Part shown: one piece after another, positions 5,324 through 10,136 of the stretch
How the letters are laid out: every line of letters begins with the position of its first letter
Position numbering within the stretch: the first letter of the stretch is position 1
DNA from: Deltaproteobacteria bacterium RBG_13_61_14
GTDB lineage: Bacteria > RBG-13-61-14
NCBI GenBank assembly: GCA_001797815.1
Contig: MGQK01000063.1
Coordinates: 65,799 to 77,474 of the forward strand
Direction: 5' to 3'
DNA length: 11,676 nt
Made by a program: the position numbers and the translations under genes
The notes under the pieces: model-generated
What the model was told of the DNA's origin: nothing
Seen by the model: the letters and a program-made list of their open reading frames with translations, nothing else
Databases searched by the model: none

Positions 5324-5329
5324 AAGGCG

Positions 5330-5443
5330 TTAGACTTTAGGCTTTAGACCTTAGACTTTGGAACCGCATTGCTTCGCTTTTAATACAGGTCTGTATGGTC
5401 AACGCTTAAGCCTAAAGTCTAAAGCCTAAAGCCTAATGCCTAA
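5330..5443. repeat. Inverted repeat built from 7-bp TTAGRCT units
   Basis: The left arm (5330-5357) is four tandem heptads: TTAGACT, TTAGGCT, TTAGACC, TTAGACT. The right arm (5409-5443) is five heptads on the opposite strand: AGCCTAA, AGTCTAA, AGCCTAA, AGCCTAA, TGCCTAA. Reverse-complemented, the right arm is again TTAGGCA/TTAGGCT/TTAGACT. The arms could therefore fold into a long stem in DNA or RNA, around a 51-base centre. The centre holds a smaller hairpin, ATACAG-GT-CTGTAT (5383-5396), and a weak promoter-like pair (TTGGAA 5358-5363, TAATAC 5381-5386). The repeat fills the whole jag-mnmG gap and includes the mnmG start codon (5436-5438). It resembles in kind the heptanucleotide STRR sequences known from cyanobacteria, but here in inverted form. 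Confidence 0.85.
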
Positions 5444-7358
5444 CACCTCTCCGATCATCGTCGTCGGCGCCGGCCACGCCGGCTGCGAGGCCGCGCTCGC
5501 GGCCAGCCGGCTGGGCCTGCCCACCCTGCTCCTGACCATCCGGCTCGACACCATCGCCAAGATGTCCTGCAACCCCGCGATCGGCGGCCTGGCCAAAGGG
5601 CAGCTGGTCCGCGAGATTGACGCGCTCGGCGGCGAGATGGCCCGGGCGATTGACGCCACCGGCATCCAGTTCCGCCGGCTCAACACCAAGAAAGGCCCGG
5701 CCGTGCGCTCGCGCCGCGCCCAGGCGGACATGGCGGCCTACTCCGGTTATATGACCGCGGCGGTCACCGGCCAGCCCAACCTGACGGTGCGCGAGGCGCT
5801 GGTGGACGCCGTGCTCACGGAAAGAGATCGGGTTTGCGGAGTTCGCTTGAGCAACGGCGAATCGCTCCCGGCGCGGACCGTAATCCTCACCACCGGCACC
5901 TTTTTGCGCGGGCTGATCCACATCGGGCTGGAGCACCACCCGGCCGGCCGGCTCGGCGAGCCGCCGGCCGAGAACCTCTCGCCCTGCCTGGCCGCGCTGG
6001 GGTTCAGGCTGGGCCGGCTCAAGACCGGCACCTGCCCCCGCCTGGACGCGCGCACGCTTGATTTTTCCCGGCTCACGCCGCAGTCGGGGGACGAGCCGCC
6101 CTTGCCTTTCTCCTTCGACGCCGAATTCAGTGCCGGCGGTAGTGCCACCGGTTTGAAACCGATGGCACGATCGGTCCAAAATAAAATTGTATGTTACCTT
6201 ACATATACCAACGAGCGCACCCACGCCGCGGTCCGGGCCGGGCTTGCTCGCTCCCCGCTTTTCAGCGGGGTGATCCGGGGCATCGGGCCGCGCTATTGCC
6301 CGAGCATCGAGGACAAGGTGCACCGTTTTCCCGACCGGACGCGCCACCAGATCTTTTTGGAGCCGGTGGGCCTGGACACGGTGGAGATCTACCCCAACGG
6401 CATCTCCACCTCCTTGCCTGACGACGTGCAGGCGGCCCTGGTCCATTCCATCACCGGCCTGGAGCAGGCCAAGATCCTCCGGCCCGGCTATGCCATCGAG
6501 TATGATTTTGTTCAGCCCACCCAGTTGCTGCCGAGCTTGATGACCAAGGCCGTCGCCGGCCTGTTTCTGGCCGGCCAGATCAACGGCACTTCCGGATACG
6601 AGGAGGCCGCGGCCCAGGGGATTATGGCCGGGATCAATGCCGCGCGCTTTTGCCGGGAGGCCGAGCCGCTCATCCTCGACCGCGGCCAGGCTTACATTGG
6701 AGTGCTGATTGACGACCTCACCACCCGGGGCACCGAGGAACCCTACCGCATGTTCACCTCCCGCGCCGAGTACCGGCTGCTCTTGCGCGAGGACAACGCT
6801 GACCTGCGGCTCTGCGAGCTGGGCTTTGGTATCGGCCTGGTGCCCGAAGCCAAGTTTGAGCGGTTCCTGCAAAAGAAGGAGCTGATCGAGAAAACCCTGG
6901 CTTCTCTGGAGCAGCCGGTGAGTCCGGCCGCGCAGTTGAATGCCTGGCTTCAGGCCCATGAGTCCGCTCCGCTGCCATCGTCCGTGAGCCGCAAGGCCCT
7001 GCTCCGCCGGCCCGAGATTCTCTTTGCGGATCTTCAAGAGCTGGTCCCTGACCTTGCTTCCCTTCCGCCCGAGGTCGCCGAGGAAGTGGAGATCATGGTC
7101 AAGTATGAGGGCTACCTGGCCCGCGAGCAGGCCGAGGTGGAGCGCTTTCAAAAGCTCGAGGCGGAGCGCATTCCCGCGGGACTCGACTATAACCGGATGC
7201 CTGGGCTTTCCCGCGAGGTGCGGGAAAAGCTCTGCAAGGTGCGGCCCCTGTCCTTGGGCCAGGCCGGCCGCATCCCGGGCGTGACCCCGGCCGCCCTGGC
7301 CGTGCTGCAAGTGTATTTGAAAAAAATTTCTCTTTCCGCTGGGCCCGGCCATGGATGA
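5436..7358 (+). CDS. mnmG: tRNA uridine-5-carboxymethylaminomethyl modification enzyme MnmG (GidA)
   Basis: MnmG is an FAD-dependent enzyme that works with the GTPase MnmE to place the carboxymethylaminomethyl group on U34 of certain tRNAs. The 640-residue protein is full length. It has an FAD-binding GAGHAG (11-16), the hallmark SCNPAIGGLAKGQLVREIDALGG (44-66), and FRRLNTKKGPAVRSRRAQAD. The redox-type cysteines C47 and C288 are present, the latter in GIGPRYCPSIEDKVHRF. So are EIYPNGISTSLP, 'FLAGQINGTSGYEEAAAQG' and the C-terminal helical tRNA-binding domain ending near GRIPGVTPAALAVLQVYLKK. An in-frame TAA at 5427-5429 fixes the start at ATG 5436. That ATG lies inside the heptad repeat, with no visible Shine-Dalgarno sequence. 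MnmE, usually adjacent, is not in the window. An AT-rich codon island covers residues about 247-259. The gene overlaps rsmG by 8 bases. Confidence 0.96.
   Translation: MPNTSPIIVVGAGHAGCEAALAASRLGLPTLLLTIRLDTIAKMSCNPAIGGLAKGQLVREIDALGGEMARAIDATGIQFRRLNTKKGPAVRSRRAQADMAAYSGYMTAAVTGQPNLTVREALVDAVLTERDRVCGVRLSNGESLPARTVILTTGTFLRGLIHIGLEHHPAGRLGEPPAENLSPCLAALGFRLGRLKTGTCPRLDARTLDFSRLTPQSGDEPPLPFSFDAEFSAGGSATGLKPMARSVQNKIVCYLTYTNERTHAAVRAGLARSPLFSGVIRGIGPRYCPSIEDKVHRFPDRTRHQIFLEPVGLDTVEIYPNGISTSLPDDVQAALVHSITGLEQAKILRPGYAIEYDFVQPTQLLPSLMTKAVAGLFLAGQINGTSGYEEAAAQGIMAGINAARFCREAEPLILDRGQAYIGVLIDDLTTRGTEEPYRMFTSRAEYRLLLREDNADLRLCELGFGIGLVPEAKFERFLQKKELIEKTLASLEQPVSPAAQLNAWLQAHESAPLPSSVSRKALLRRPEILFADLQELVPDLASLPPEVAEEVEIMVKYEGYLAREQAEVERFQKLEAERIPAGLDYNRMPGLSREVREKLCKVRPLSLGQAGRIPGVTPAALAVLQVYLKKISLSAGPGHG
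6184..6202 (+). other. AT-rich motif AAATTGTA-N7-TTAC, copy 1 (inside mnmG)
   Basis: Within G+C-rich mnmG, about 36 bases around this site are only about a quarter G+C by my count. They encode the conserved segment QNKIVCYLTYTN with A/T-ending codons. The motif reads AAATTGTA (6184-6191), seven bases, TTAC (6199-6202). The same spaced motif recurs at 8191-8209 (minus) and 9962-9980 (plus). It also overlaps the imperfect palindrome TATGTTACCTTACATA. Confidence 0.5.
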
Positions 7359-8013
7359 TCCGGATCGCCAACTCCTTCTGGCCGGCGCCCGGAGCTTCGG
7401 GCTGGAGCTAGGGCCGGCGGAGTTCAATCGCTTCGACCAATACCTGGCCCTGATCCAGAAATGGGCGGGCAAGGTCAGCCTGACCGCGCTCCGGGGCGAC
7501 CGGGAGATCGTGCTCAAGCATTTCCTCGACTCGCTCGCGGTGCATCCGCTGCTCTCTGACCAACTTTTCGTCATGGACCTGGGCGCGGGCGCGGGCTGTC
7601 CCGGCATCCCGCTCAAGCTGGTCCGGCCTTCGCTCCGGCTCCTGCTCCTCGAATCCAAGTCCAAGAAAGTGAGCTTCCTCAACCAGGCGATCCGCACCCT
7701 GGAGCTGGCGGATACCCGGGCCATCCAGCAGCGGGCCGAGAGCACGCTCTTCCAGGAGGGGATCAAGGGCCAGGTGGACGTGGTCCTGGCCCGGGCGGTC
7801 GGGAAACTGGACTGGCTGATCCGGTTGTCCGCGCCGTATCTCAAGCGGGGCGGCCGGCTGATCGCGATGAAGGGGCCGGACCCGGAGCCCGAGATCCGGG
7901 AGGCGGGCCCGATCCTGGAGGCGTTTCGCGGCCGGATCCTGGAAGTCCGGCACTACGATTTGCCGGAGACCGGGGGCAGCCGGAGCCTGGTGGTGGTGGA
8001 ATGTTTCACGTGA
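7351..8013 (+). CDS. rsmG: 16S rRNA (guanine-N7) methyltransferase RsmG (GidB)
   Basis: RsmG methylates N7 of G527 (E. coli numbering) in 16S rRNA using S-adenosylmethionine. This 220-residue protein shows the family pattern. The N-terminal helical part includes FDQYLALIQKWAGKVSLTAL, where most homologues have 'W...NLT'. Then come VLKHFLDSLAVHPLL, the SAM-binding motif I 'VMDLGAGAGCPGIPLKLVRP' (74-93), motif II LLLLESKSKKVSFL (97-110), and 'DVVLARAVGKLDWLI' (143-157). It ends with LKRGGRLIAMKGP. The ATG overlaps the last 8 bases of mnmG, so the two are translationally coupled. The last four codons and the stop (E-C-F-T-TGA) form most of a parS site, so the C-terminal sequence is also constrained as DNA. 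parA and parB, the usual next genes, are absent; MCP genes converge from the other side. Confidence 0.96.
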   Translation: MDDPDRQLLLAGARSFGLELGPAEFNRFDQYLALIQKWAGKVSLTALRGDREIVLKHFLDSLAVHPLLSDQLFVMDLGAGAGCPGIPLKLVRPSLRLLLLESKSKKVSFLNQAIRTLELADTRAIQQRAESTLFQEGIKGQVDVVLARAVGKLDWLIRLSAPYLKRGGRLIAMKGPDPEPEIREAGPILEAFRGRILEVRHYDLPETGGSRSLVVVECFT

Positions 8014-8017
8014 AACA
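8002..8017. promoter_or_regulatory. parS centromere site 1 (perfect 16-mer)
   Basis: TGTTTCACGTGAAACA is a perfect 16-bp palindrome matching the widely conserved chromosomal parS consensus bound by ParB. parS sites cluster near the origin, and the end of rsmG next to parAB is a classic location. This site overlaps the 3' end of rsmG and includes its stop codon (8011-8013). The ParB that would read it is not encoded in the window. Confidence 0.95.
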
Positions 8018-8019
8018 GG

Positions 8020-8119
8020 CGGTTCAGTGGACAGTAAACAGTGCACGGTGGACAGTGAAGAAAGAAGAAGTTCCTTGTCAACTGTGCACTGTCCACTGTT
8101 TACTGTGCACGATTAACCG
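8020..8119. repeat. Inverted repeat of 7-bp CAGTGNA units between two parS sites
   Basis: The left arm is CGGTT (8020-8024) plus five heptads (8025-8059): CAGTGGA, CAGTAAA, CAGTGCA, CGGTGGA, CAGTGAA. An 18-base centre follows. The right arm (8078-8112) is TCAACTG, TGCACTG, TCCACTG, TTTACTG, TGCACGA, and the terminal AACCG (8115-8119) mirrors the left CGGTT. Read on the opposite strand, the right arm is again CAGTNNA heptads. The element sits in the convergent gap between rsmG and the first MCP gene, exactly where parAB would be expected, and is flanked by parS on each side. It has the same plan as the 5330-5443 element but a different heptad sequence. Confidence 0.88.
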
Positions 8120-8133
8120 TTTCACGTGAAACC
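8118..8133. promoter_or_regulatory. parS centromere site 2
   Basis: The 14-base core GTTTCACGTGAAAC (8119-8132) is a perfect palindrome identical to the parS core. The outermost pair is C/C instead of the consensus T/A. Its centre is 116 bp from that of site 1, about 11 helical turns, so both sites should face the same side of the helix. It closes the right end of the CAGTGNA inverted repeat. Confidence 0.9.
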
Positions 8134-8264: not shown

Positions 8265-10136
8265 TCAGGGATCCGCCCGCACGGCTCCCTTGCCCTCCAC
8301 CGTCTCCCGCAGCGCCTCGGCAAAGCTTTGCAGCTCGGCAATGGCGGCCTGGATCTCTTTGGCCCCGGCCTCGGCCCGCCGGGCCTCGGCGTGGACCTGG
8401 GCCACGGAGCCGGCGAGCTGTTCGGAGCCTTGGGTCTGCTGGCGGGTGGACACGGTGATTTCGCCGGCCGAGCGCGAGGTGGTCTCGGCCAGGGAAGAGA
8501 TCCGCTTCAGCGCCGAGACCGTCTCGGCAATGACCGTGGCCCCGGCGGCAACTCTTTCCCGGCCTTTTTCCGCCAACTCGTGGCTCTGGAGCGTGGCGGC
8601 TTGAATTGTCTCCACCAGGCCGCGAATTTCCCGGGTGGCGTCCGCCGCCCGGACCGCCAGCCGCTGGGTGGCCTCGGCCACCACCTTGAAGCGCTGGCCG
8701 GCCGCGCCGGCGCCGGCGGCTTCGAGCGAAGCATTCAACGCGAGCAGCTCGGTCTGGTCGGAGATCTCGTCCATCAATTCCACGCCGCGATAAATTTCCT
8801 GGAAGCGGTCCTCCAGCTCTTGCATGGCCAGGCCGATCGCTTGCACCTGCTCGGAGATGCCGGCAAAGCCGTCCCGGACCTCCGCCAGTTTCTGTTCGCC
8901 TTCCTGACACGCGGACAGGGTGGAATGGGCGATCCCGTCCACCGTGCCCGCGCTCTCGGCAATGTGCCGGGCCGTGGCCACGATTTCCTCAGCCACGGTC
9001 GAGGCCTCTTCGACCGCCGTCGCCTGTTCCGCGGCTCCGGTCGCCTGCTCGGCGCTGATCGCATGCAGGGTGCTGACCGTTTCTTCCAGCCGGCGGATGC
9101 CCTGGCGCAGGTTCTCGACCACGGACTCCATGGCCTGGACGTGGCCGCGGATCGAGCCCATCATCCGGTTCAGGGCCGCGCCCAACTCGGCCAGCTCGTC
9201 ATTGCTGACCAGGCGCAGGGGCTGGCCGTAATCTCCCCGCCGCACTTTTTCCGCGACGCTCTGCAAAATGCGAATCGGCCGGGTGGTCTCGCGGGCCGCG
9301 GCGATGCCGAGGAGCAAGGCAAGCCCCAGGCCGACCAGCCAGACGGTCAGGTAAAAGGTTTTCAGACTTCCCATTCGCGACTGAAAGAACCGAGACGAGC
9401 GGATGCGGGGATCCAGGGAATTCTGGATCTGATCCGCCAAGTCCGCTTGGACCGCGGCCGGAAGGAGTTCCTCCATCCGGGCCATGTTCTTCAGCACGGC
9501 ATGGGTCTGGCTATAGCCCAGGACCACCATGTAGCCGGCGATTGCTCCGACCAACACCATCAGGATCAGGTTGAACTTGAAGCGCAGCGAAAGCCTGACG
9601 CCGGCCAGGCGGGCGGCCTCGCTCTCGGGAAGCAGGGCGACGGTTTGCTGCAGGATCGGCTCAACCACCCAGTGGGCGGCGTAAATGGCCATGGGGACCG
9701 TGATCAGCCCGGCCACCAGGCCGCCGAGAAAGCCATACCCGATGACGTCCGAAGGCCAGCCGAGGTTGCGGGCGATGATCCAGCCCCCGGCGGCGCCGCC
9801 GATCACGAAACTGGGAAAGGCAAAGAGGGCGCAGAAATAGGGGAGGTTGACGCACCGTTCCTGGACCGCCTGCACCTGGCGGTCGGTGAGCGCCGCCTTG
9901 GCCCCGAACGAGTCCAGGAAGCGGAGAATCGGCCGGGAATAGAAATAAACGATCGAGCAATAAATTGTAAGCAATATTACTATTATTGGAATGGGGTGGT
10001 AGAGCATGAGCGGGAGCTCTGCCGGGGTGGCGCCCTGTCCGAAGTAAATCAAGAGCTCGATGACCAGCACGTTGAAGCCCGTCACCGGCAGGATAATCCA
10101 GAGCAGGAGTCGGCCTAAAAATTGAGGCTTGGTCAT
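8265..10136 (-). CDS. Methyl-accepting chemotaxis protein, six membrane helices
   Basis: This 623-residue receptor starts with four hydrophobic helices (about 8-32, 48-66, 100-122, 131-155). A fifth helix (188-208), a short hydrophilic segment of about 50 residues (209-259, probably periplasmic) and a sixth helix (262-281) follow. A HAMP linker spans about 282-335, including SNDELAELGAALNRMM. The rest is a long coiled-coil MCP signalling domain whose hairpin tip is DQTELLALNASLEAAGAG (460-477), with no CheA or CheW gene nearby. The tip differs from the E. coli form: 'EAARAGEQGRGF' is replaced by EAAGAGAAGQRF. A strong AGGAGG lies 9 bases before the ATG. It is a tandem paralogue of the gene upstream at 10247 and probably in one transcript with it (110-base gap). 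The ligand is unknown. Codons for about residues 48-62 (IPIIVILLTIYC) form an AT-rich island. Confidence 0.9.
   Translation of the reverse strand: MTKPQFLGRLLLWIILPVTGFNVLVIELLIYFGQGATPAELPLMLYHPIPIIVILLTIYCSIVYFYSRPILRFLDSFGAKAALTDRQVQAVQERCVNLPYFCALFAFPSFVIGGAAGGWIIARNLGWPSDVIGYGFLGGLVAGLITVPMAIYAAHWVVEPILQQTVALLPESEAARLAGVRLSLRFKFNLILMVLVGAIAGYMVVLGYSQTHAVLKNMARMEELLPAAVQADLADQIQNSLDPRIRSSRFFQSRMGSLKTFYLTVWLVGLGLALLLGIAAARETTRPIRILQSVAEKVRRGDYGQPLRLVSNDELAELGAALNRMMGSIRGHVQAMESVVENLRQGIRRLEETVSTLHAISAEQATGAAEQATAVEEASTVAEEIVATARHIAESAGTVDGIAHSTLSACQEGEQKLAEVRDGFAGISEQVQAIGLAMQELEDRFQEIYRGVELMDEISDQTELLALNASLEAAGAGAAGQRFKVVAEATQRLAVRAADATREIRGLVETIQAATLQSHELAEKGRERVAAGATVIAETVSALKRISSLAETTSRSAGEITVSTRQQTQGSEQLAGSVAQVHAEARRAEAGAKEIQAAIAELQSFAEALRETVEGKGAVRADP
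9962..9980 (+). other. AT-rich motif AAATTGTA-N7-TTAC, copy 3 (inside the first MCP gene)
   Basis: On the plus strand, antisense to the MCP gene, AAATTGTA (9962-9969) is followed after seven bases by TTAC (9977-9980). The surrounding stretch (about 9950-9990) uses ATA, GTA, TTG, CTT, ACA, ATT and TAT codons, unlike the rest of the gene. It encodes part of the second membrane helix. Confidence 0.45.

Follow-up and report, generated by a model that had tools for sequence, protein, structure and literature searches.

The window analysed here, a stretch of 11,676 nucleotides, lies on contig C63 of a draft genome that comprises 132 contigs and is 95% complete. Within it, rsmG and a gene resembling those for methyl-accepting chemotaxis proteins (MCPs) converge on a gap that holds two parS sites and, between them, an inverted repeat built of CAGTGNA-type heptads (Table 1). 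A second palindrome, built of TTAGRCT heptads and located elsewhere in the window, is listed for comparison.

Table 1. Features of the parS-containing gap and of a comparison palindrome, numbered from the first base of the window
Feature	Position	Strand	Description
TTAGRCT-heptad palindrome (comparison)	5325..5441	.	fills the jag-mnmG gap, without parS
rsmG (gidB), 16S rRNA methyltransferase	7351..8013	+	TIGR00138, 145 bits, cut-off 99.5
parS site 1	8002..8017	.	TGTTTCACGTGAAACA, full 16-bp consensus, exact match
Left heptad array	8025..8059	+	five CAGTGNA-type units: CAGTGGA CAGTAAA CAGTGCA CGGTGGA CAGTGAA
Centre of heptad palindrome	8060..8077	.	18 bases, read from the sequence
Right heptad array	8078..8110	-	four units at 8078-8105 (minus strand: CAGTAAA CAGTGGA CAGTGCA CAGTTGA) and a partial heptad to 8110
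parS site 2	8119..8132	.	GTTTCACGTGAAAC, 14-bp core, exact match
Methyl-accepting chemotaxis protein-like gene	8265..10136	-	MCP models matched, with scores under their equivalog cut-offs

The sequence TGTTTCACGTGAAACA is the near-universal parS consensus of chromosomal ParABS systems. A preliminary description of this stretch had reported a perfect 16 bp parS at site 1 and a second perfect core at site 2, 116 bp away, and we found both the sequences and the spacing to be correct. The cores, at 8003-8016 and 8119-8132, have 0 mismatches in 14 positions and are 116 bp apart from start to start. Site 1, which overlaps the stop codon of rsmG, matches the consensus in full, and the outer bases of site 2 are C and C, which confines the consensus to its 14 bp core. 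These matches are far over chance, the number of parS matches expected in the window being 0.02 even when two mismatches are allowed. The genome-wide search that the preliminary description had called for was carried out with the parS pattern, and sites 1 and 2 were the sole exact or one-mismatch sites in the draft genome. With the reservation that 5% of the assembly is missing, the two sites probably constitute the centromere of this genome. Matches with two mismatches were mostly recurring GCTTCACATGAAAC and GCTTCACTTGAAAC variants, a small repeated family of parS-like 14-mers with copies that include C33:7974, C53:3863, C68:42, C81:85528 and C101:8520 of this genome (G000); such matches were rejected as parS sites, as a reversed control also yields 10 matches.

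The usual gene order is rsmG-parA-parB. In this genome ParB is encoded by an open reading frame on contig C79 (TIGR00180, 191.7 bits against a cut-off of 58.45) with parA directly upstream, and the usual order is therefore broken, in agreement with the proposal that a convergent gap here takes the place of parAB. The parS sites do lie in the origin region, on a common contig with dnaA and 37 kb from it (dnaA at C63:36344, parS at C63:73801). GC skew along contig C63 showed no clear switch. The pair is thus like the parS of other chromosomal ParABS systems in its exact sequence, its origin-side position, the presence of more than one site, their clustering, and the presence of ParB in the genome. 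It is unlike the usual locus in that no parAB follows rsmG and in that site 2 lacks the outer T/A bases. Clustered sites are well documented, and in Caulobacter the five strongest parS lie within 5 kb (PMC5815017).

Between the two sites we found the inverted CAGTGNA repeat with its 18-base centre as it had been described, and it is far beyond chance. The palindrome folds as RNA at -48.6 kcal/mol (z -6.2 against shuffles). The whole block folded as DNA gives z -8.4, a value that is partly trivial in that two identical palindromes always pair together. The distance from parS to the element is 8 bp on the left and also 8 bp on the right if the partial heptad is counted. The junctions had been described as mirror images of each other. 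The motif CGGTT does follow the left parS at a distance of a few bases, but the likeness is weak, extending to only 5 bases, and at the right parS the CGGTT shares the final base of the site. The mirror symmetry of the parS sites themselves is trivial, since they mirror one another solely because each is its own palindrome.

Heptads of this type are dispersed through the genome, as judged from pattern searches and from 55 extracted elements, on which the copy numbers rest. The pattern CAGTGNACAGTRNACAGTG gave 196 overlapping matches at up to 2 mismatches, against 13 for the reversed control. Most of the 55 distinct array-containing elements that we characterised consist of one array of 3-6 units; a clear inverted pair with long arms was seen in just three (the parS-gap element, L008 and L025). 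A simple codon-based gene caller gave usable calls around 39 of the elements; 37 of these proved to be intergenic (24 in tandem, 8 in convergent and 5 in divergent gaps) and the remaining two fell inside predicted genes. The genome holds just two parS, and therefore no other heptad element of the 55 is parS-linked. The preliminary description had held that many CAGTGNA copies unrelated to parS would make the arrangement a chance insertion, and this is what the search returned, with many copies genome-wide, all without parS. Of the 50 gaps on the 81 kb contig C63, 10 hold an array with a period of 7, whereas each of the periods 4-6 and 8-12 is represented in 3-5 gaps, so that a heptad array in any single gap is unsurprising. 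The comparison palindrome at 5325-5441 has 34-nt arms that are 88% complementary around a 49-nt centre (fold z -5.1), and two further inverted TTAGRCT pairs were seen on the same contig at C63:58085-58201 and about C63:65420-65480.

The closest comparison available was with two relatives of the same order, G001 and G002, the phylum sample comprising three genomes. Each relative carries a parS pair, with one mismatch per site, at a locus other than rsmG, namely downstream of a lipoprotein-like gene and upstream of rpsU/GatB-Yqey/dnaG (names assigned by reading the translations), and the position of the centromere therefore varies within the order. The sites are 76 bp apart in G002 (L081), with an unrelated spacer sequence, and 1264 bp apart in G001 (L082), with an amidohydrolase-like gene between them; the exact heptad pattern is absent from both genomes. 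Conservation of the layout, the spacing and the heptads among relatives, by which the preliminary description proposed to judge its case, is thus not seen. A search of named genomes for rsmG relatives that might serve for synteny turned up a single gammaproteobacterial fragment and otherwise just distant genomes of Clostridia type, at 31-44% identity, and these were set aside. Exact parS pairs 26-187 bp apart occur in at least nine other, unrelated genomes of a sample of 145, with spacings of 26, 36, 47, 59, 60, 75, 79, 80 and 187 bp among the matches listed. In the majority of doublets examined the spacer is unstructured, the structured ones being those of G131 (z -5.5, a GC-rich hairpin), G084 (z -3.4) and G007 (z -3.4). 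Neither a conserved phasing nor a requirement for a palindrome is visible across the sequences of these parS pairs.

From the observed sequences, copy numbers, gene context and relatives, we consider it very probable (roughly 0.83) that two independent and ordinary features occupy one convergent gap and that their layout is a coincidence. The parS sites would form an origin-side chromosomal doublet, either member of which could load the ParB clamp whose gene lies on contig C79; together the two would provide redundancy or higher loading rather than act as a spacing-dependent device. Binding of ParB at both sites is predicted. A degenerate, dispersed intergenic heptad repeat would have entered the neutral DNA separating the two sites, or expanded within it, here as two head-to-head arrays able to form a hairpin, and we infer that it plays no part in partition. 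The preliminary description had offered this as its alternative, with a mobile palindromic repeat arriving between parS sites already in place, and it is the reading that gains support from heptads elsewhere without parS and from the relatives' parS without heptads. The counterpoint is that an inverted pair with long arms, found in 3 of 55 elements, makes the parS-gap copy unusual in form. A striking centromere-like layout can evidently come from two common ingredients.

The heptad hairpin might at most serve as the 3' hairpin of rsmG. A structural role at the 3' end of either rsmG or the convergent MCP gene, as an mRNA stabiliser or weak terminator, is a proposal that concerns the repeat alone and is compatible with coincidence of two ordinary features, but we regard it as unlikely. 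The hairpin occupies a convergent gap, 11 nt past the rsmG stop, and many heptad copies are found no more than about 30 nt from where a predicted gene ends or begins. However, a search for terminator-like sites found none carrying a T run, an Rfam search returned no match, and most heptad copies have a single orientation and are incapable of forming a long hairpin.

Somewhat less likely again is a history in which the heptad element inserted into one original parS and duplicated it, which would make the second parS a target-site duplication. The element is indeed flanked, almost symmetrically, by a perfect 14 bp direct repeat consisting of the parS cores, and the L011 array (near 1473-1549) has an imperfect 20 bp flanking repeat, 17/20 identical and 8 bp off on both sides, which is a possible insertion footprint. 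Across the 55 elements, however, direct repeats at the flanks exceed what shuffled pairings give by only a little and are not a feature of most copies; 3 of 55 scored at least 10, one of them the parS pair itself, where 0.6 would be expected for the set. Moreover, the stretch repeated at the parS gap coincides with the parS core and does not extend past it, a match better explained by selection on parS than as the footprint of an insertion, and G001 and G002 also carry two parS sites, without heptads.

We give very little credence to a functional composite in which the palindrome would limit ParB spreading, phase two clamps or extrude as a cruciform, and just as little to co-option of a dispersed repeat into a composite centromere where it would alter clamp loading or sliding: a strong predicted hairpin does lie between the sites, 116 bp corresponds to about 11 helical turns (116/10.5) and three other doublets have structured spacers, but most doublet spacers are unstructured, the 26-187 bp spacings share no value, the same heptads occur throughout the genome away from parS, and G001 and G002 differ in spacing and spacer content. 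The cruciform, phasing and barrier roles first proposed are thus not supported. Were such a composite real, the structured spacers of the few other doublets would be parallel cases, and a spacer palindrome that affected ParB sliding would offer a natural experiment on what brings ParB clamps to a halt, although nothing here requires it. A literature search for heptad repeats tied to parS, or for cruciforms at parS, brought up no relevant work.

Under the reading of two independent features, the repeat is best compared with known repeat classes. It resembles REP/BIME elements with their RAYT (Y1) transposases in being dispersed, intergenic and sometimes palindromic, and Y1_Tnp (RAYT/IS200-like) matches occur at 19 places in the genome (L105-L112 and others). 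It differs from them in its variable unit number (mostly 3-6 heptads), its mostly single orientation (3 of 55 inverted) and its lack of a defined short palindromic unit in high copy. With a 7 bp tandem unit, dispersed and mainly intergenic, it falls instead among heptanucleotide simple sequence repeats. Intergenic repeats of this sort are an already known kind (PMC4679880 and the work on long simple sequence repeats cited therein, Mrazek 2007), an example being TAACTGA in Beggiatoaceae. The features shared here are units of 7 bp, few copies per set, a mostly intergenic position, many sets per genome and a scattered phylogeny; the exact heptad pattern occurs in 10 of 386 genomes of many families, this genome included. 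The present heptad differs from TAACTGA in sequence, is more degenerate and sometimes forms inverted pairs, and no start-codon-facing bias is demonstrated here. Period-7 arrays were also detected by TRF, 11 in all across contig C63 and part of C79. The C63 gaps, both in the window and at L179-L183, are rich in several unrelated, degenerate 7 bp repeat families, and this multiplicity suggests a genome-wide process that generates heptads.
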